Assembly: GCA_024405015.1 (NCBI GenBank)
Contig: JAKSPE010000010.1
Span: 1-64,000 of the forward strand
Direction: 5' to 3'
DNA length: 64,000 bases
Source of the DNA: Sphaerochaetaceae bacterium
GTDB lineage: Bacteria; Spirochaetota; Spirochaetia; Sphaerochaetales; Sphaerochaetaceae
In this document: positions 2,615 to 53,141 of the stretch, one piece after another
Position numbering within the stretch: position 1 is the first letter of the stretch
Layout of the letters: the number at the start of each line of letters is the position of its first letter
Made by a program: the position numbers and the translations under genes
Notes under the pieces: model-generated
What the model saw: only the letters and a program-made list of their open reading frames with translations
What the model was told of the DNA's origin: nothing
The model's database searches: none

Positions 2615-4312
2615 ATGGCAGACAAGCAGTATATGACCATTGACGGTATTCTCACCGAAATCAATGGAGAGAAGAACCTTCTTGAGGTCATCCGAAAAAC
2701 AGGAATCAAGATGCCTACCTTCTGCTACTACACCGAACTTTCCGTTTATGGTGCCTGCAGAATGTGTATGGTCGAAACCGATAGAGGCAGCCTCGAGGCT
2801 GCATGTTCCACTCCTCCAAAAGCAGGAATGAACATCAAGACAAACACAGAGAGACTCAGAAAGTACCGAAAGAACATTCTGGAGCTGATTCTCGCTAACC
2901 ACTGCACCGACTGTAACACCTGCCAGAAGAACAAGAGCTGTAAGCTGCAGGACCTTGCCATGAGATTTGACCTCAAGGATGTCAGATTCCCGAATACAAG
3001 TGCCAAGAAGAAGTATACAGACAATTCCTCCAAGTGCATCACCATCAACAGAGACAAGTGCATCCTCTGTGGTGACTGTGTCAGAATGTGTAACGAGATT
3101 CAGGGAGTCGGAGCCATTGATTTTGCATTCCGCGGTTCCAACATGATGATCAGCACATCCTTCTCAAAGCCTCTTGCCGAGTCCCCATGTGTCGGATGCG
3201 GACAGTGTGCCGCTGTCTGTCCAACCGGTGCCATCGTCGTCAAGAACGATGTCGACAAGCTGTGGGCTGCCCTTGATGATCCAAACGTCAGAACAACCAT
3301 CCAGATTGCTCCAGCCGTTCGTGTCGCCATCGGACAGGAACTGAGAATGCATGTCGGAGACAACGTCATGAACAGCATCGTCGCATCCCTGCGAAGAATG
3401 GGATTCGATGAGGTCTATGACACAACACTCGGTGCTGACCTGACAGTCTTCGAGGAGACTGCTGAGTTCATCAAGCGTCTGAAAAGTGGCGAGAACCTTC
3501 CACTGATCACATCCTGCTGTCCAGGTTGGATCCAGTATGCCGAAAAGCGTCACCCAGAGCTCCTCAAGAACATCTCAACCTGCAAATCTCCAATGGAGAT
3601 GTTCGCAGCCATCCAGAAGCAGAAGGCAAAGGACGAAGGCCGCAAGGTGTTCCATGCAGCAGTCATGCCATGTACAGCCAAGAAGTTCGAGGCCGCAAGA
3701 CCTGAGTTCCAGGTGGACGGTGAGCCTGATGTCGATGCTGTCATCACAACCAAGGAACTGATTCGCATGATCAAGGAATCCGGTGTCCAGTTCGATGAGA
3801 TCGAGCCGGATACAGTCGATGCCCCAACCAACGTCGCCTCCGGAGCCGGTGTCATCTTCGGCACAACCGGTGGTGTCTGTGAGGCCGTTCTCAGACACGT
3901 TGTCACAGACAAGTCCAAGACAGCACTCATCAACATCGCAGAGATGGGAGAGCGTGGTCGCGAGGGAATCAAGAAGTTCGATGTCACACTCGGAGACAAG
4001 ACTCTCAAGCTGGCTGTCGTCAGTGGCCTTGGAAATGCCGAGAAGGTCATCCAGCAGCTTCAGGCCGGAGAGCATTTTGACTTCATTGAGATCATGGCCT
4101 GCCCAGGTGGTTGTGTCCATGGTGGTGGTCAGCCATATGCCAAGAGCGAGCCTAAGGCTCAGCGCACAACAGGTCTCTATCGAACCGACAAGACTCTTGC
4201 TGTCAGACGAAGTGAGGAGAACCCTTACATTCAGGTCCTTTACAATGGAATCCTGAAGAATCGTGAGCATAAGCTTCTGCATGTTGACTACGTCAAGGAA
4301 GAGAAGAAATGA
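2615..4312 (+). CDS. hydA: [FeFe]-hydrogenase catalytic subunit (HydA, bifurcating type)
   Basis: 565-residue catalytic subunit. An N-terminal [2Fe-2S] domain is followed by the His-ligated [4Fe-4S] motif (NHCTDCNTCQKNKSC, near residue 105), two [4Fe-4S] ferredoxin motifs (CILCGDCVRMC and CVGCGQCAAVCP) and the H-cluster domain. All three H-cluster signatures are intact: TSCCPGW near 298, MPCTAKKFE near 351 and EIMACPGGCVHGGGQP near 491. It lacks the extra C-terminal [2Fe-2S] extension of the longest family members. ATG at 2615 follows AAGGAGG and starts one base after the hydB stop. With hydB and hydC it should reversibly couple NADH plus reduced ferredoxin to hydrogen. The maturases HydEFG are not in this window. 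Confidence 0.96.
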   Translation: MADKQYMTIDGILTEINGEKNLLEVIRKTGIKMPTFCYYTELSVYGACRMCMVETDRGSLEAACSTPPKAGMNIKTNTERLRKYRKNILELILANHCTDCNTCQKNKSCKLQDLAMRFDLKDVRFPNTSAKKKYTDNSSKCITINRDKCILCGDCVRMCNEIQGVGAIDFAFRGSNMMISTSFSKPLAESPCVGCGQCAAVCPTGAIVVKNDVDKLWAALDDPNVRTTIQIAPAVRVAIGQELRMHVGDNVMNSIVASLRRMGFDEVYDTTLGADLTVFEETAEFIKRLKSGENLPLITSCCPGWIQYAEKRHPELLKNISTCKSPMEMFAAIQKQKAKDEGRKVFHAAVMPCTAKKFEAARPEFQVDGEPDVDAVITTKELIRMIKESGVQFDEIEPDTVDAPTNVASGAGVIFGTTGGVCEAVLRHVVTDKSKTALINIAEMGERGREGIKKFDVTLGDKTLKLAVVSGLGNAEKVIQQLQAGEHFDFIEIMACPGGCVHGGGQPYAKSEPKAQRTTGLYRTDKTLAVRRSEENPYIQVLYNGILKNREHKLLHVDYVKEEKK

Positions 4313-46186: not shown

Positions 46187-46224
46187 AAAGATGGGAAATT
46201 TTTGGATTTCCCATCTTTTTTTTG
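46187..46224 (+). terminator. Terminator of the ABC transporter operon
   Basis: AAAGATGGGAAA (46187-46198) and TTTCCCATCTTT (46207-46218) form a 12-bp perfect stem followed by more T residues. Confidence 0.95.
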
Positions 46225-46279
46225 TCCTTATTGTAATTTTTTGCTGAATGTGTTTAAATTTTTGCTGGGGACGGGACTG

Positions 46280-47770
46280 ATGAAACTGATTATTGGTAAT
46301 GATTGCAAAAACATTCCTCTAGAGAACGATCAGAGCATTCTTGATGTCTTGAAGCTCACCTATGGCATTACCTGTCCATGTGGCGGAAACGGCAAATGCG
46401 GAAAGTGCAAGGTCAAGGTCCTCGAGAAGGAAGGCGATACGCAGTGGAAAACCGTCCTCTCCTGTATGACAGGTGACGTGTATGCCGCGGATGCCAGTGC
46501 TCTTATCGCAAATGCTTCTGCTTCTGCCACAGTGCAGGAAACGTTTACCTCTGAAGGGGTCTCCTTTGCCAAGGACCTGCCTTGGAGCGGCTATTCGATT
46601 GCCGTTGATGTTGGTACCACAACACTTGCCATGTATGTCATTGATGGCAAAAGCGGTAAGGTCGTCAGCCGAATCTCCGCCCTCAATCCGCAAAGTTCCT
46701 TTGGAAGCGACGTCATCTCAAGAATTCTCTATTCCTATTCCCAACCAGGTTCCGACAAGATCATCCAGAAAGTGTTATCGGATAAGCTGGCACAAATGAT
46801 CCGGACAACGATGGGGACCCTTTCCGAGAATTGGACAATCGATGGTATTCAGATTGTCGGAAACCCGGCAATGGTGTATCTGCTTGCTGGAATCGATGCC
46901 CATGAATTGGGTGTTGCCCCATACAAATTGAGCGTGAAAGAACCTTTTGTGAAGGATTCCAAAGAAATTGGCATGGACCTGGACCCCTCAGTGCCTGTCT
47001 ATTTTCCAGGTTCTGTTTCTGCGTTTTTCGGCTCGGACCTCACATGTGGCATGGCTGCCACAATTGATTTTGCAAAGGGTGAGAGTTTCATCTACACCGA
47101 CCTCGGTACCAATGGTGAAATCGCCGTTTCGGACGGAAAGCGCATTCTGTGCTGTTCCACGGCGGCAGGCCCTGCCTTTGAAGGTTCCAACATCAGCTGT
47201 GGAATCGGTGCCGTAGAAGGTGCGTTGTGTAGCGTAGAGCTCAAAGACGGTGCCTATGTCACAAAGACCATTGGAGGGAAGGCTCCGATTGGAATCTGTG
47301 GAAGCGGTATTGTCGATGCCATGGCCGTTCTTTTGGAAGACGAAACCGTAGACATCACCGGAAGGATGGAAGGGGATTCTGTCTCGTTGGCACAAGGTGT
47401 TCAGTTCACCCAGAAGGATGTCCGTGAAATCCAGCTTGCAAAGTCTGCCATCCGTGCAGGAATTGAGGTTCTTTTGGAAATGCTGTCCTTATCCTATGAG
47501 GATGTGGACAAGGTTTATATCGCAGGTGGTTTTGGCAGTTACATCCGTATCGAAAACTGCATGAAAATCGGTATGCTTCCTGAAATGGACATGTCAAAAG
47601 TCGTCACGTTGGGGAATGCTGCCGGTAAGGGTGCGGTTGCACTTGTCCATTCGACGGAGGCTCAGAATTCATCTGAGGATCTTCGCCTCAGAATGGAGTA
47701 TGTGGAACTGTTTGATTCAGCGTCATTTCAGGGTAAATATGTGGAGCACATGCTTTTCGGAGAGGAGTGA
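46280..47770 (+). CDS. Corrinoid activation protein (RACo-type ASKHA ATPase with ferredoxin domain)
   Basis: 496-residue reductive activator of corrinoid proteins. The N-terminal [2Fe-2S] domain has the cysteine pattern CPCGGNGKCGKCKVKV with a further Cys near residue 63 (LSCMTGD). The ASKHA/DUF4445 part has the ATP-site motifs YSIAVDVGTTTLAMYVID and YTDLGTNGEIAV, and the C-terminal YIAGGFGSYI. The family uses ATP to drive electron transfer to inactive Co(II) corrinoid, restoring Co(I). ATG at 46280 follows a GGGGACGGGA stretch; a longer upstream frame would begin in the terminator. It is coupled to the regulator gene two bases downstream. Confidence 0.9.
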   Translation: MKLIIGNDCKNIPLENDQSILDVLKLTYGITCPCGGNGKCGKCKVKVLEKEGDTQWKTVLSCMTGDVYAADASALIANASASATVQETFTSEGVSFAKDLPWSGYSIAVDVGTTTLAMYVIDGKSGKVVSRISALNPQSSFGSDVISRILYSYSQPGSDKIIQKVLSDKLAQMIRTTMGTLSENWTIDGIQIVGNPAMVYLLAGIDAHELGVAPYKLSVKEPFVKDSKEIGMDLDPSVPVYFPGSVSAFFGSDLTCGMAATIDFAKGESFIYTDLGTNGEIAVSDGKRILCCSTAAGPAFEGSNISCGIGAVEGALCSVELKDGAYVTKTIGGKAPIGICGSGIVDAMAVLLEDETVDITGRMEGDSVSLAQGVQFTQKDVREIQLAKSAIRAGIEVLLEMLSLSYEDVDKVYIAGGFGSYIRIENCMKIGMLPEMDMSKVVTLGNAAGKGAVALVHSTEAQNSSEDLRLRMEYVELFDSASFQGKYVEHMLFGEE

Positions 47771-47772
47771 TT

Positions 47773-48972
47773 ATGGATAATGATGTCATAGAGAAGCTTG
47801 AGAAGATTGCGTTCCATTATGAGAAATCCACGGGAGTCCGCTGTCGCTTTGTCCAGGATCTGGACAACGTGATGAAGAGGATGCCGATGGAATGTGCTGA
47901 TATGGAAGGGTGTAAAGCCTGTCATCTCAAGGCAATGAATCATTCCGAGGTGTTCGGAGGCAGCTACATTTACCTTTGTCCAAAGGATCTCATGTTCTGG
48001 GCAAGTCCCGTTCTGAAGAATGGGGTGAATATCGGTTCCTTCATTGCTGGACCTGTCATCTCCGTAGATCCGGAAGAGCTGGAGATCTATGATAAAATCA
48101 AGGATATGAACATCAAGGAGATTTCTCCTGATGTTGCTTACAGCTATTCCAGAATCCTTTTCATGTGCGCATCCTTCATGTTCTCAGATTTCAACCAACA
48201 ACTGATCAGCCACGAGTCTGGGTTTGATTTCCAGTCCAGAATTGTAGAGTCCCTCCGAGATCTCAAGGATAACAAGCTGGCAAATGGAGTGAGAAGTGCC
48301 ATGCTGTCTTTGGCCACTGCCATAAAGAGCGGCAACGAGAAAACCTCAAAAGACCGATTAAGTGACTGCATCTCCATCTGCATCTCCAATTTTGGTGTCA
48401 CATTGTCGGACATGAAGGGCTGGGCTCCGATTCTTGTCAGTGGCATGCTGATGGGTTCCTTCGAGGGAAATTCTGATGAGTCTTCCGCCTGCTCGGAGGC
48501 CCTTCATACCATCAAGGCTATCAATGACTCCAATAGCGATGAAGAGATTCTGGGTCTTCTGGATGTGCAACGTGGTAATTTCTGCAAGAGAATATCGTCG
48601 GATCTGATGGATCAGGGCCTGAATCCGCAGATCATCAAGGCCATCCATTACATGCAGAACAACCTGGCGAACCCAATCTCCGAATTCGATGTGGCCAAGC
48701 ATGTCCAGCTGAGCGTCAGCCATTTCAGCAGACTCTTCAACTCCACATGCAACATGTCTTTCTCCAAGTACCTGAACAAACTTAGAACCGAACGGGCTAA
48801 GGAGCTTCTGATTGCAACAGATATCTCCATTCTTGAAATCTGCGAACTGACAGGTTACGAGGACCAGAGCTATTTCACCCGTATCTTCAAAAAATATCAA
48901 GGTATGGCACCGAATGCTTTCCGAATCAAGACAGGTAAGTTCCCAAACCAGGATATTGAAATACACAATTGA
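47773..48972 (+). CDS. AraC-family regulator with PocR sensory domain
   Basis: 399-residue regulator. The N-terminal PocR domain (about 1-170) has CADMEGCKACH and YLCPKDLMFWASPVLKNG; it is a PAS-like sensor known to bind small hydrocarbon derivatives such as 1,2-propanediol in PocR. A helical middle region is followed by an AraC double helix-turn-helix (about 295-395) with VAKHVQLSVSHFSRLFN and ICELTGYEDQSYFTRIFKK. GAGAGGAG lies in the end of the activase gene; an in-frame GTG at 47767 is an alternative start. It most likely senses the methylated substrate or its product and controls the flanking operons. Confidence 0.9.
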   Translation: MDNDVIEKLEKIAFHYEKSTGVRCRFVQDLDNVMKRMPMECADMEGCKACHLKAMNHSEVFGGSYIYLCPKDLMFWASPVLKNGVNIGSFIAGPVISVDPEELEIYDKIKDMNIKEISPDVAYSYSRILFMCASFMFSDFNQQLISHESGFDFQSRIVESLRDLKDNKLANGVRSAMLSLATAIKSGNEKTSKDRLSDCISICISNFGVTLSDMKGWAPILVSGMLMGSFEGNSDESSACSEALHTIKAINDSNSDEEILGLLDVQRGNFCKRISSDLMDQGLNPQIIKAIHYMQNNLANPISEFDVAKHVQLSVSHFSRLFNSTCNMSFSKYLNKLRTERAKELLIATDISILEICELTGYEDQSYFTRIFKKYQGMAPNAFRIKTGKFPNQDIEIHN

Positions 48973-48984
48973 TGGAACGTGGGG

Positions 48985-49002
48985 AATGCACTGCATTTTT
49001 TT
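48985..49002 (+). terminator. Weak terminator after the PocR/AraC gene
   Basis: AATGC/GCATT with a three-base loop (48985-48997) is followed by TTTTTTC. The stem is only five pairs, so termination is probably partial. Confidence 0.4.
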
Positions 49003-49086
49003 CACATAAAAGGCATGTTTTTACAATCGTCAAGTATAACTCATGATGTAAACTTGATTTGCAATAGCAAAATAAGGAGTATCTAT

Positions 49087-49719
49087 ATGGCTAGTTTGGT
49101 TGAAGTTGGCACACTGGTTCAGTCCGGAAAGGCAAAACTTGTACGTCAGATGACAAATGAATTGCTTAGCAGTGGTTTTTCTCCAAAGCAGATCCTTGAG
49201 GAAGGATTCCTTCCTGCAATGGGTGTTGTTGGTGAGAAGTTTAAGAATAATGAGGTTTTCGTCCCTGAGGTTCTCATTGCCGCACGTGCAATGAATGCTG
49301 GCATGCAGGAACTGCAGCCATATCTTCAGGGTGGAGAGTCCATCGAGCGTGGTACTGTCGTTCTCGGAACCGTCAAGGGAGACCTTCACGATATCGGTAA
49401 GAACATTGTCGGCATGATGATGAAGGGCCGCGGTCTCAAGGTTGTCGATCTTGGTACAGACGTCTCTGCTGAGAGATTCATCGAAGCAGCAATCGAGAAC
49501 AACGCAAACATCATTGCCTGTTCATCCCTCCTCACCACAACCATGAAAGAGATGGAAGTTGTCGTCAAGGAAGCTGAGAAGGCCGGAATCCGCTCCAAGG
49601 TCAAGATCATGGTTGGTGGTGCTCCAGTTACACAGTCTTTCTGTGATGCAATTGGTGCTGACCGCTACACAGCTGATGCAGCATCTGCTGCTGAAGTCGC
49701 TGCTGCTTTCTGCGCATAA
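49087..49719 (+). CDS. Methyltransferase corrinoid protein
   Basis: 210-residue cobalamin-binding protein like MtaC/MtbC or the B12 module of MetH. The N-terminal helical cap is followed by GDLHDIGKNIV (the D-x-H-x-x-G lower-ligand motif, near residue 100), SSLLTTTMKEM and MVGGAPVTQ. It carries the methyl group between two methyltransferases. AAGGAG precedes ATG 49087. Nineteen bases later comes a UroD-fold methyltransferase, so they form an operon. The upstream gap has TTTTTACAA and TTTGCAA elements resembling those in front of the first methyltransferase. Confidence 0.95.
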   Translation: MASLVEVGTLVQSGKAKLVRQMTNELLSSGFSPKQILEEGFLPAMGVVGEKFKNNEVFVPEVLIAARAMNAGMQELQPYLQGGESIERGTVVLGTVKGDLHDIGKNIVGMMMKGRGLKVVDLGTDVSAERFIEAAIENNANIIACSSLLTTTMKEMEVVVKEAEKAGIRSKVKIMVGGAPVTQSFCDAIGADRYTADAASAAEVAAAFCA

Positions 49720-49738
49720 TCAACGATAGGTATCTCTT

Positions 49739-50743
49739 ATGAATATGAATGAATGGTTGAACGGTCTCCGTGAGCCAGGTGTCTATAAATGCATGCCGAT
49801 TCTCACTTTCCCAAGTGTGAGTCTTCTTGGTTGTAGCGTTAAGGATATTGTCACAAACTCTGATCTTCAGGCCCAGGGCATGAAAGCCATCTCCGATCGG
49901 GTAAAGGCTTCTGCTTGTGTCAGTTTCATGGATCTTTCTGTGGAGGCTGAGGCATTTGGTTCTGAAATTCGATTTGCAGACAATGAAGTTCCAGTTGTCA
50001 CCAAGCCACTTGTGACAACTGTCGAAGAGGCAGAAGCTCTGACCGTTCCGCAGGTTGGTGCAGGACGTACTGGCCTTTATGTGGATTCAATCGCAAAGGC
50101 CAGAAAGCTGATCAATGATCGTCCTCTGCTTGCTGGAGCCATTGGACCATTCTCCTTGGCTGGCCGTCTGAATGACGTCTCTGAGATTCTGATGAACTGC
50201 TACGATGACGAGGATCTTGTGCATGCTCTGATGAAGAAGGTGACTCCGTTCATCATCGATTACATCAAGGCTTTCAAAGCTGTTGGTGCCGATGGAGTCC
50301 TTCTGGCTGAGCCTCTGACAGGTCTTATGTCTGCCGATATGGCAGCAGAGTTCTCTGAGCCATATGTGAAGCAGATTGCCGATGCTGTGATTGATGATTC
50401 CTTTGCACTGATCTACCACAACTGTGGAAACAATGCTGGTGGAATGCTTGATTCCATCCTCAGAACTGGATGTTCCGCTTATCACTTCGGTAATGCCGTA
50501 GACATGAGAAAGGTCATCGCTGAGGTTCCTGCCGACGTAATTGTCATGGGTAACGTAGACCCAGCTTCCCAGTTCTGCAATGGAACACCGGATTCTATCC
50601 GTAAGGCAACACTTGATCTTCTTGCCGATTGTGGAGCTCATGCAAACTATGTCCCATCTTCAGGATGTGACATTCCTCCACATTCTCCATGGGAGAACAT
50701 CGATTCCTTCTTTGGCGCTGTCGCTGATTACTATGCAAAGTGA
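49739..50743 (+). CDS. MtaA/MtbA-like UroD-fold methyltransferase with zinc motif
   Basis: 334-residue UroD-superfamily methyltransferase. Unlike the paralogue at 40124 it has a complete zinc-ligand pattern: IYHNCGNN (His-x-Cys) near residue 223 and SSGCDIPP near 308. In MtaA and MtbA this zinc activates the thiol of coenzyme M. Here it may transfer methyl between the corrinoid protein and a thiol, or act on a substrate. A methanogen pathway is not indicated, as no other such genes are seen. AGG lies 8 bases before ATG 49739. It is the second gene of the corrinoid-protein operon. Confidence 0.87.
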   Translation: MNMNEWLNGLREPGVYKCMPILTFPSVSLLGCSVKDIVTNSDLQAQGMKAISDRVKASACVSFMDLSVEAEAFGSEIRFADNEVPVVTKPLVTTVEEAEALTVPQVGAGRTGLYVDSIAKARKLINDRPLLAGAIGPFSLAGRLNDVSEILMNCYDDEDLVHALMKKVTPFIIDYIKAFKAVGADGVLLAEPLTGLMSADMAAEFSEPYVKQIADAVIDDSFALIYHNCGNNAGGMLDSILRTGCSAYHFGNAVDMRKVIAEVPADVIVMGNVDPASQFCNGTPDSIRKATLDLLADCGAHANYVPSSGCDIPPHSPWENIDSFFGAVADYYAK

Positions 50744-50762
50744 TTGAGCCTAGAAGAAAGGA

Positions 50763-50794
50763 AAAGGCCACTGCATACGCGGTGGCCTTTTTTG
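50763..50794. terminator. Bidirectional terminator between methyltransferase genes
   Basis: AAAGGCCACTGC (50763-50774), an ATAC loop and GCGGTGGCCTTT (50779-50790) form a 12-bp stem with one wobble pair. T runs leave on the plus strand (TTTTTT) and, less strongly, on the minus strand (TTTTCCTTTC). Confidence 0.92.
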
Positions 50795-50811
50795 TGTCCT
50801 AAGAGTTTTTG

Positions 50812-51666
50812 TTAGGCGTTTGTCATCTGCTGCTTGAGTGTGCTGATGAAGCTGTCGTTACAGCCACAGCATCCGCCAATGTAGGAGACGAAGTCCAGAG
50901 CTGGAGCAACTTCCTGAGCGAACTGCTCTGCGGTGTAAGGGACGGTTCCTGTGATTCCCACGGAGATCGGCTTTCCTGCATTTGGCTTGAAAATGAGAGG
51001 AAGGTCTGTGTATTCGCGGAACTGCTTGATGATTGGTACGGCAGAAGCAGGTCCCAAAGAGCAGTTGAGTCCGATGGCATCTGGTTTCAGAGGGGAGAGA
51101 CCCTCGACGACATCCTTGACGGACTGTCCCATAATGGTCTTTCCGACTGGCTCGAAGGACATAGAGCAGAAAACAGGAACGTCATAGCTCTTGGCGACGC
51201 GAAGAGCGACCTTCATCATTTCCACATCGATGAATGTCTGAAGAAGGATCAGATCTGGTTTCTCTTCCATACCGGCACCGATCTGCTGTCTGTACTGGTC
51301 TTCGACCTCTTCCTCTTCCAGGTCTCCATATGGCTCCATCAGCTGGGAGAGCGGACCAACGGAAAGACAGACCTTGACGTCTGTGCCTTTCACGCTTTCT
51401 TTTGCGATTCTTACGCCGGCTTTCACGACTTCGGCGATATCGAGCTTGGATGCTCTTTTGACGGTGTCAGGGTTTGCACCAAAGGTATTGGACAGGATGA
51501 TCTTGGCTCCGGCCTCGATATATCTTTTATGTAACTGGCTGACAAATTCAGGATGCTCAATGTTGTAGATCCAGACAGGAACCTTTTCAACGCCGCAAGA
51601 ATCGGCGATTTCCCACAGGGTTGTTCCTACTGCACCATCCAAAAGGACTGGTTTATTTGTAGACAT
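50812..51666 (-). CDS. Homocysteine S-methyltransferase (MetH N-terminal module type)
   Basis: 284-residue homocysteine-binding barrel. LLDGAVGTTLWE starts the family fold, ILSNTFGANPDTVK is near residue 58, and the zinc ligands are in GLNCSLGP near 203 and GGCCGC near 268. It matches the homocysteine module of cobalamin-dependent MetH, without pterin, B12 or activation domains. With the separate corrinoid protein and activation-domain protein it would complete a split methionine synthase. GGAG precedes ATG 51666. It faces away from metK, with tRNA-Gly between. Confidence 0.92.
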   Translation of the reverse strand: MSTNKPVLLDGAVGTTLWEIADSCGVEKVPVWIYNIEHPEFVSQLHKRYIEAGAKIILSNTFGANPDTVKRASKLDIAEVVKAGVRIAKESVKGTDVKVCLSVGPLSQLMEPYGDLEEEEVEDQYRQQIGAGMEEKPDLILLQTFIDVEMMKVALRVAKSYDVPVFCSMSFEPVGKTIMGQSVKDVVEGLSPLKPDAIGLNCSLGPASAVPIIKQFREYTDLPLIFKPNAGKPISVGITGTVPYTAEQFAQEVAPALDFVSYIGGCCGCNDSFISTLKQQMTNA

Positions 51667-51913: not shown

Positions 51914-51994
51914 TAGCTACCAATAATTTTTTTTGTGTTGTATGGAATTTTGGTTTTCTGCCCGAAAATCATCGTTGTCTCTCGGTGCTGTTGT

Positions 51995-52022
51995 TGTATA
52001 GTTTTTGTCTTTTTACTATACT
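51995..52022 (+). promoter_or_regulatory. metK promoter
   Basis: TTGTAT (51995-52000), 16 bp, TATACT (52017-52022), predicting a start near 52029, about 10 bases before the aptamer. The same bases form an inverted repeat GTATAGT/ACTATAC (51996-52021), so a DNA-binding repressor is also possible. Confidence 0.55.
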
Positions 52023-52038
52023 GTTGCCACAATCGAAT

Positions 52039-52091
52039 CGACGGGATTTAAGCTCTACTTGCTCCGTCCGTAAAGAAAAGCTAAAGGAGGC
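52039..52091 (+). promoter_or_regulatory. SAM-II-class riboswitch upstream of metK
   Basis: The leader follows the SAM-II pseudoknot plan. P1 is GACGG (52040-52044) with CCGTC (52064-52068). The loop begins GATTT and ends CTTGC; after P1 comes CGTAAA, then GCTAAA (52080-52085) directly before the Shine-Dalgarno. The loop segment GCTCT (52052-52056) can pair with GGAGGC (52086-52091), with one bulge, to form the P2 pseudoknot and hide the ribosome site. SAM binding would then lower MetK translation. The ordered match of all conserved pieces, plus metK downstream, is the evidence; P2 is short. SAM-V is a close structural alternative. Confidence 0.72.
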
Positions 52092-52097
52092 GAAAAC

Positions 52098-53141
52098 ATG
52101 ACTTTGTTTTCTACCGAAATGGTCAGTAAGTACCATCCAGACAAGTATGCAGATCAGATTTCTGATGCTGTTCTCACCACCATCCTGAAAGATGACCCAA
52201 AGGCCCATGTCGCATGTGAGTGCATGGTCAAGGACGATGTCGTCATTCTGGGAGGAGAAATCACCACAACTGCCACACCTGATTACTGGGAGATTGTGAA
52301 CTCTGTTGCCACAAAACTCGGCTACAGCGTCAAGGAGTTCAGAAACTACATCAACACACAGTCCCCACAGATCCAGAACGCTGTTGATTCAGATGAGAAC
52401 GTCGGTGCAGGCGACCAGGGAATGATGTTCGGCTATGCCACAAAGGGCGGCAAGTACTACCTCCCTTATGGTCAGGAAGTTGCCATCGATATCATCAAGG
52501 CCATTGAGGACGATATCCGCGACAATGCAGACTCCATTTTCCAGGGCGATGCCAAGACACAGGTCACAACAGATGTCAGTGTCCCAGGTTATGAGAAGCC
52601 AATTGATACTATTCTTGTTTCCGTTTGCCACAAGGAAGGTTACACCCTTGAGCAGGTTCAGGATTATGTGAAGGCACTTCTTGAGAAGAAGGGCATTCCA
52701 CAGGCCAAGAGACTTCTTCTCAATCCTGCAGGTATCTGGACCATCGGAGGCCCAACCGCTGACTGTGGTCTCACTGGAAGAAAGATCGTCTGTGACCAGT
52801 ATGGCGGTTACGCTCCAGTCGGTGGTGGTGCATTCAGCGGAAAGGACCCTTCCAAGGTTGATAGAAGCGCTTGCTACATGGCTAGAAAGATTGCTGTTGA
52901 GATGGTGAAGAAGTATGGCTTTGAGGAGTGCACCGTTCAGCTTGCCTATGCCATCGGCGTCAGCGAGCCTGTATCGGTTAGCGCCATCGGCACCAAGGCA
53001 GACAACACAACAGTTGATGTTGGTGAAGAGGTCAGATCTTCCTACAACCTCACACCAGGTGGAATCATCAAGACTCTTGGTCTGACAGAGCTTGACTATG
53101 CAACCATCGCTGGTGGAAACCACATGATCCAGTTCGTCTGA
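52098..53141 (+). CDS. metK: S-adenosylmethionine synthetase (short, divergent MetK)
   Basis: 347-residue SAM synthetase making AdoMet from ATP and methionine. Core motifs are present: YHPDKYADQISDA (the ATP-site His and Asp), GAGDQGMMFGYA, and GGGAFSGKDPSKVDRSA. It is about 35 residues shorter than common bacterial MetK. The opening block reads FSTEMVSKYHPDK instead of the usual T-S-E-S-V-x-E-G-HPDK, so it belongs to a divergent subgroup. AAAGGAGG precedes ATG 52098 and lies inside the predicted riboswitch. It completes the methyl-to-SAM route suggested by the upstream genes. Confidence 0.94.
   Translation: MTLFSTEMVSKYHPDKYADQISDAVLTTILKDDPKAHVACECMVKDDVVILGGEITTTATPDYWEIVNSVATKLGYSVKEFRNYINTQSPQIQNAVDSDENVGAGDQGMMFGYATKGGKYYLPYGQEVAIDIIKAIEDDIRDNADSIFQGDAKTQVTTDVSVPGYEKPIDTILVSVCHKEGYTLEQVQDYVKALLEKKGIPQAKRLLLNPAGIWTIGGPTADCGLTGRKIVCDQYGGYAPVGGGAFSGKDPSKVDRSACYMARKIAVEMVKKYGFEECTVQLAYAIGVSEPVSVSAIGTKADNTTVDVGEEVRSSYNLTPGGIIKTLGLTELDYATIAGGNHMIQFV

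Follow-up and report, generated by a model that had tools for sequence, protein, structure and literature searches.

The window, a stretch of 64 kb of DNA, contains a divergent S-adenosylmethionine (SAM) synthetase gene, metK, an assignment of the earlier note that is supported by three S-AdoMet_synt Pfam domains. Beside metK lies a corrinoid methyl-transfer cluster (46202-51666) encoding a RACo-type reactivator, a PocR/AraC regulator, a corrinoid protein, a URO-D-type methyltransferase and a homocysteine S-methyltransferase (-). MetK of the window genus is short (347 aa), at most 45% identical to other spirochaete MetKs, and its long branch attaches weakly to short MetKs of Bacillota (Streptococcus cristatus, Oribacterium, Clostridia). 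It is possible that metK was acquired, replaced the resident copy and took up the local aptamer. The proposed spirochaete host agrees with the distribution of FlaA (PF04620), which was found in 91/118 genomes of the class and in 0/14 controls and thereby identifies the class as Spirochaetia. Sphaerochaetaceae are non-motile, and the listed members of the window's own family lack FlaA, as expected of such bacteria.

Read on the + strand from 52040, the metK leader runs GACGG-GAUUUAA-G-CUCU-AC-UUGC-U-CCGUC-CGUAAAGAAAA-GCUAAA-GGAGG-CGAAAAC-AUG, where AUG is the metK start, on the same strand as the leader element and 7 nt past the Shine-Dalgarno (SD) sequence (Table 1). The earlier note had described this leader as a SAM-II-class riboswitch. 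All the pieces it named were found in place (GACGG, GATTT at 52045-52049, CTTGC at 52058-52062, CCGTC, GCTAAA, GGAGG and ATG) and the SAM-II plan was confirmed; missing from its description was the P2 core, UUGC (52059-52062) with GC(U)AA (52080-52084) and a single bulged U. A P2 core with a bulged U is also the pattern of SAM-V, whose structure is closely similar to that of SAM-II (PMC6061858). The third strand AUUU is located at 52046-52049. The P2 originally proposed, GCTCT with GGAGGC, consists of real pieces that are better read as a P2a helix of CUCU with GGAG.

Upstream of the element a promoter-like pair of hexamers can be read. It is absent from the consensus promoter scan, and its first hexamer has 3/6 matches; a GATATA-type box stands at about the same distance upstream in several genus-mates. 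Transcription would be expected to start at approximately 52028-52031, so that the leader would barely exceed the aptamer. Between the aptamer and the metK start codon the terminator scan listed no intrinsic terminator.

Table 1. Features of the metK leader in the window
Feature	Position	Strand	Basis or remark
Promoter-like pair, TTGTAT (51994-51999), 17 nt, TATACT (52017-52022)	51994-52022	+	Read from the sequence; putative
R1 covariance-model match, extent	52037-52102	+	35.3 bits, E 1.8e-7; R1 built without the window genus
P1 5' strand, GACGG	52040-52044	+	Sequence; pairing counted over elements
L1, GAUUUAA	52045-52051	+	Invariant across all genus leaders
UUU within L1	52047-52049	+	Matches the SAM-II/SAM-V major-groove third strand holding SAM (roles of the U's: PMC6061858)
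P2a 5' strand, CUCU, anti-SD	52053-52056	+	Best register; without covariation support
P2 core 5' strand, UUGC	52059-52062	+	Pairing as SAM-V U19/U20 with A49/A48 (PMC6061858)
P1 3' strand, CCGUC	52064-52068	+	Sequence; pairing counts
Joining loop, CGUAAAGAAAA	52069-52079	+	Long insertions here in two genus-mates (loops of 166 and 27 nt)
P2 core 3' strand, GC(U)AA plus A	52080-52085	+	Sequence, genus comparison
Equivalents of SAM-contacting U47 and A48-A50 of SAM-V	U52082, A52083-52085	+	By match to PMC6061858
Shine-Dalgarno, GGAGG	52086-52090	+	Sequence; directly 3' of GCUAAA
P2a 3' strand, GGAG, within SD	52086-52089	+	Best register
metK, S-adenosylmethionine synthetase, 347 aa, divergent	52098-53141	+	Pfam domains, tree

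At their own cut-offs, the Rfam models reported only tRNAs in the window and nothing at the metK leader. When the leader was scanned permissively, SAM_alpha (RF00521) ranked first with 15.8 bits (cut-off 36) and SAM-II (RF01726) second with 12.2 bits (cut-off 44). Over 395 genomes of the class, RF00521 matched in 58 at E 0.05 and passed its cut-off in 8. A lineage covariance model, R1, was built from 22 aligned spirochaete SAM-II elements, none of the window genus, with P1 only; its E-values are rough. The training set includes elements above the Rfam cut-off (L112, 49.5 bits; L116, 41.2 bits), and the window element is homologous to these Rfam-positive spirochaete SAM-II elements. Searched over the 64 kb, R1 gave the metK leader as its sole strong match, with 35.3 bits and the next at 10.3 bits; thus, in the covariance-model check suggested earlier, the Rfam models miss the site and the lineage model finds it. 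From shuffles, 0.03 occurrences of the spaced pattern GATTT..TTGC..GCTAAA would be expected in the window, which has one. R1 also detected the metK leaders in 9/9 genomes of the genus, seven of them at E <1e-6, with weaker matches in the two leaders that carry loop insertions. As no Rfam cut-off is reached, membership rests on the chain via relatives and on R1's rough E-values. An Rfam cut-off is a database threshold and not a structural trait, and the element is therefore treated, via its relatives, as a divergent member of SAM-II. The sequence comparison supports this placement, and Rfam alone would leave the site unannotated.

Conservation follows the outline of the aptamer. In all nine genus genomes with metK the hairpin and the GCUAAAGGAGG half are kept; compared with the window, the 29-nt hairpin shows 93-100% identity and the 12-nt 3' half AGCUAAAGGAGG no difference. 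Identity among these genomes is 0.69-0.74 over the first 300 nt of metK and 0.56-0.64 over the 80 nt upstream of the element, little or no better than shuffled. The U-rich third strand, UUGC and GCUAAA of the core are invariant across all genus leaders, including UUU, UU and UAAA, the equivalents of SAM-contacting positions (PMC6061858). The P1 helix is kept by paired changes: over 26 elements 95.2% of cells are paired vs 85.8% with partners shuffled, four of the five pairs changed on both sides, and 0/500 shuffles reach the observed pairing or two-sided change. P2a shows no measurable covariation by permutation (9.04 for its own pairings vs 9.07 for swapped partners) because its 3' strand, the ribosome site, is nearly constant; in five genus-mates with the loop CAUCU it is shortened to UCU/GGA. 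UUGC/GC(U)AA is invariant and hence uninformative on pairing by covariation. Plain secondary-structure folding gave z 0.44 for the window leader and no state that leaves the ribosome site free consistently between genus members or leader lengths, with P1 and site accessibility varying; as expected for a pseudoknot, such folding is uninformative on this leader. The earlier note had named the joint lack of a covariance match and of conserved helices in related leaders as grounds for giving up its reading; a match, from R1, and conservation of both halves in nine metK leaders were found, and together they support the assignment to the SAM-II/SAM-V family.

Two genus-mates carry insertions in the joining loop. 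In G006 the loop measures 166 nt (L005:1317-1483) vs 8 nt in most genus-mates, and the insert folds as a single long hairpin (leader fold z -5.5), with both flanking aptamer halves intact and unchanged. The loop of G008 is 27 nt at the same place and opens with the same AGGGAA. That the separated halves stay intact across the inserts argues for their joint working. A structured insert is geometrically plausible here, as the joining loop of an H-type pseudoknot would lie outside the SAM pocket, and the G006 leader represents a natural insertion experiment on such a pseudoknot. No known RNA is embedded in the G006 insert. A repeated mobile element was considered and rejected, since the insert is single-copy among eleven genus genomes.

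Beyond the window genus, R1 elements at E 1e-4 occur in 45/395 Spirochaetia genomes, partly those of its training set. Among the 47 elements listed for relatives, 26 lie immediately upstream of metK in the same orientation, and three more precede metK-like ORFs. In the window genus the R1 match ends between 5 nt inside metK and 2 nt before its start, and thus the ribosome site belongs to the aptamer. In other genera of the listing a gap of 46-202 nt separates the aptamer from metK, so that some other expression platform would be needed there. Across the family SAM-II is widespread on metK, and overlap with the metK SD is found mainly in the window genus.

Several observations were made at these other loci. 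The leaders L023, L025, L027 and L128-L133 are of the 46-202 nt type; in some of them a downstream CUCCUUCCC might either pair with GGGGAG of the aptamer or mask the AAGGAAGG ribosome site, which may amount to a three-way switch. L157 (G017) and L160 (G022) contain divergent metK-like ORFs of 262 and 359 aa with the HPDK motif kept and a SAM-II element directly upstream, over the ribosome site. Small ORFs of 64-200 aa without a Pfam match directly follow SAM-II elements in L112, L114, L115, L117, L138, L140, L152, L155 and L159. In L180 the ORF after the aptamer resembles the start of N-formylglutamate amidohydrolase (5.4e-6, below cut-off).

The metK aptamer of the genus is nearer to an element that we call type B (ACGGGAUUUA..CUUCUAC-UUGC..GCUAAAGGAAG) than to the classical form. 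Type B was found in 11 copies in 10/101 genomes searched; in G000, G002, G009, G018 and G367 a short terminator comes after it and then, on a small ORF's ribosome site, a classical aptamer. The window genome itself has a second SAM-II-like locus (L001/L154), which scores 55.2 bits with R1 and 27.1 bits with SAM_V (cut-off 41). This tandem cassette (L001:1512-1678, minus strand, equal to G000:C1 ~3493-3659; also in L140, L151, L152 and L159) is composed of a near-invariant type B aptamer, the terminator GGACC-UGAAAU-GGUC-U7 and a classical SAM-II/SAM-V aptamer, which in L001 overlies the ribosome site of an ORF of 284 aa. That ORF has no Pfam match and no homologue in 72 relatives, and the ORF following the cassette varies between genomes. 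For L001/L140, a tRNA or tmRNA end was considered as an alternative for the upstream type B element, but neither ARAGORN nor Rfam at gathering reported one. There is, in our estimate, an even chance that a genus subtype ACGGGAUUUA..UCUACUUGC..GCUAAAGGA exists that is common to the metK leaders and the first aptamer of the tandem cassette at another place in those genomes, tolerates a structured joining-loop insert and belongs to a wider spirochaete SAM-II regulon on small no-family proteins.

Altogether, we read the metK leader as a SAM-II-family riboswitch acting on translation, with a probability of roughly 0.88. By analogy with the solved SAM-II and SAM-V structures, SAM would be the ligand, held in a triplex, and binding would switch expression off; affinity and the direction of switching are likewise transferred from these relatives. 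The 29-nt P1 hairpin would form first. When SAM is plentiful, it would dock with the AUUU third strand on one side and the UUGC/GC(U)AA helix on the other and lock the H-type pseudoknot, upon which the SD GGAG would be drawn into a short helix with the hairpin-loop CUCU and metK initiation would be blocked. Scarcity of SAM would free the 3' half and allow metK to be translated. Direct occlusion of translation is the best reading because the aptamer includes the ribosome site and no terminator was listed, and it is the mode described for SAM-II/V (PMC10907184, PMC6061858). A feedback loop onto the neighbouring methyl-transfer genes had also been proposed. The R1 search detected no SAM-II element before the corrinoid cluster genes in the window and, since metK alone carries one, the feedback would close on SAM synthesis and not on the neighbouring methyltransferases.

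It is unlikely that the SAM-II fold serves a shifted ligand in this divergent subtype, such as SAH or another adenosyl compound. The subtype is indeed far from the Rfam consensus, and a spermidine class derived from a SAM aptamer variant provides a known precedent, as far as PMC10853860 outlines it; however, the positions corresponding to SAM contacts, among them the two U's that point O4 at the sulfonium (PMC6061858), are all invariant in nine genomes, and the gene under control makes SAM. We give only a slim chance to a conserved protein-binding leader, bound for example by MetK or a regulator on its own mRNA, that merely resembles SAM-II. P1 by itself is a stable hairpin adjoining the ribosome site and the missing covariation of P2a would fit such a site, but the same core precedes metK genes that differ considerably in sequence and many unrelated small ORFs, it passes the Rfam SAM-II cut-off in several genomes, and GATTT/TTGC/GCTAAA is not what a model of a protein site would predict. 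Another SAM pseudoknot on metK is highly improbable: the SAM/SAH riboswitch is an H-type pseudoknot also found on metK (PMC7367207, PMC2864571), but RF01727, SAM-III and SAM-VI were all missing at E up to 10 from the permissive leader scan, in which SAM_alpha and SAM-II were the two best, and the R1 match points the same way. Chance likeness or a decayed aptamer, to which the Rfam score under cut-off might point, can practically be dismissed given purifying selection on exactly the two aptamer halves vs unconserved flanks, the sole strong R1 match in 64 kb and the rarity of the core pattern.

With the SAM-II riboswitch reading, a small and well-studied class of RNAs reaches the spirochaetes, where it would widely control SAM synthesis in one bacterial family; its form in the window is divergent enough to escape Rfam. 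SAM-II has been described from alpha-proteobacteria, a few other proteobacteria and the Bacteroides group, with spirochaetes not reported (PMC1273637), and its long-loop form from Bacteroidetes and marine samples (Weinberg 2010, PMC2864571). A literature search found no work treating SAM-II riboswitches together with spirochaetes, which is weak evidence as many journals lie outside its coverage, and given the Rfam-level matches the databases probably already contain some spirochaete SAM-II. The 'new territory' of the earlier note therefore applies to the divergent window element, unflagged by Rfam, and less to the phylum, as RF00521 passes its cut-off in eight Spirochaetia genomes. Nor is the combination with this gene new: in Bacteroidales SAM-II already precedes metK, with three leaders above the RF01726 cut-off at 54-60 bits. 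The aptamers before many small no-family proteins make the SAM link of these proteins directly testable.

Among known systems, SAM-II RF00521 (Corbino 2005, PMC1273637) shares with the window element the P1 hairpin, the predicted pseudoknot, the GATTT..TTGC..GCTAAA core and the placement before a SAM or methionine gene, and relatives of the same family pass its cut-off; the window copy differs by CUCUAC in place of the CC-rich loop and its score of 15.8 of 36 bits. Compared with most spirochaete elements, in which the P1 closing pair is U-G, this pair is G-C in the window genus. The long-loop SAM-II RF01726 has the same core, but the window element scores just 12.2 of 44 bits. In tandem SAM-II/SAM-V and tandem SAM-II systems (PMC9481103, PMC11508383) a terminator-linked first aptamer precedes a ribosome-site-linked second one, a known arrangement (PMC9481103) that recurs in L001/L154, whereas metK in the window has one element by itself. 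The permissive scan, which went up to E 10, did not list SAM-V RF01826 (PMC6061858) for the window leader, and the P3 of SAM-V has no counterpart there, yet the window element would resemble SAM-V in occluding the ribosome site directly via a very short P2a.
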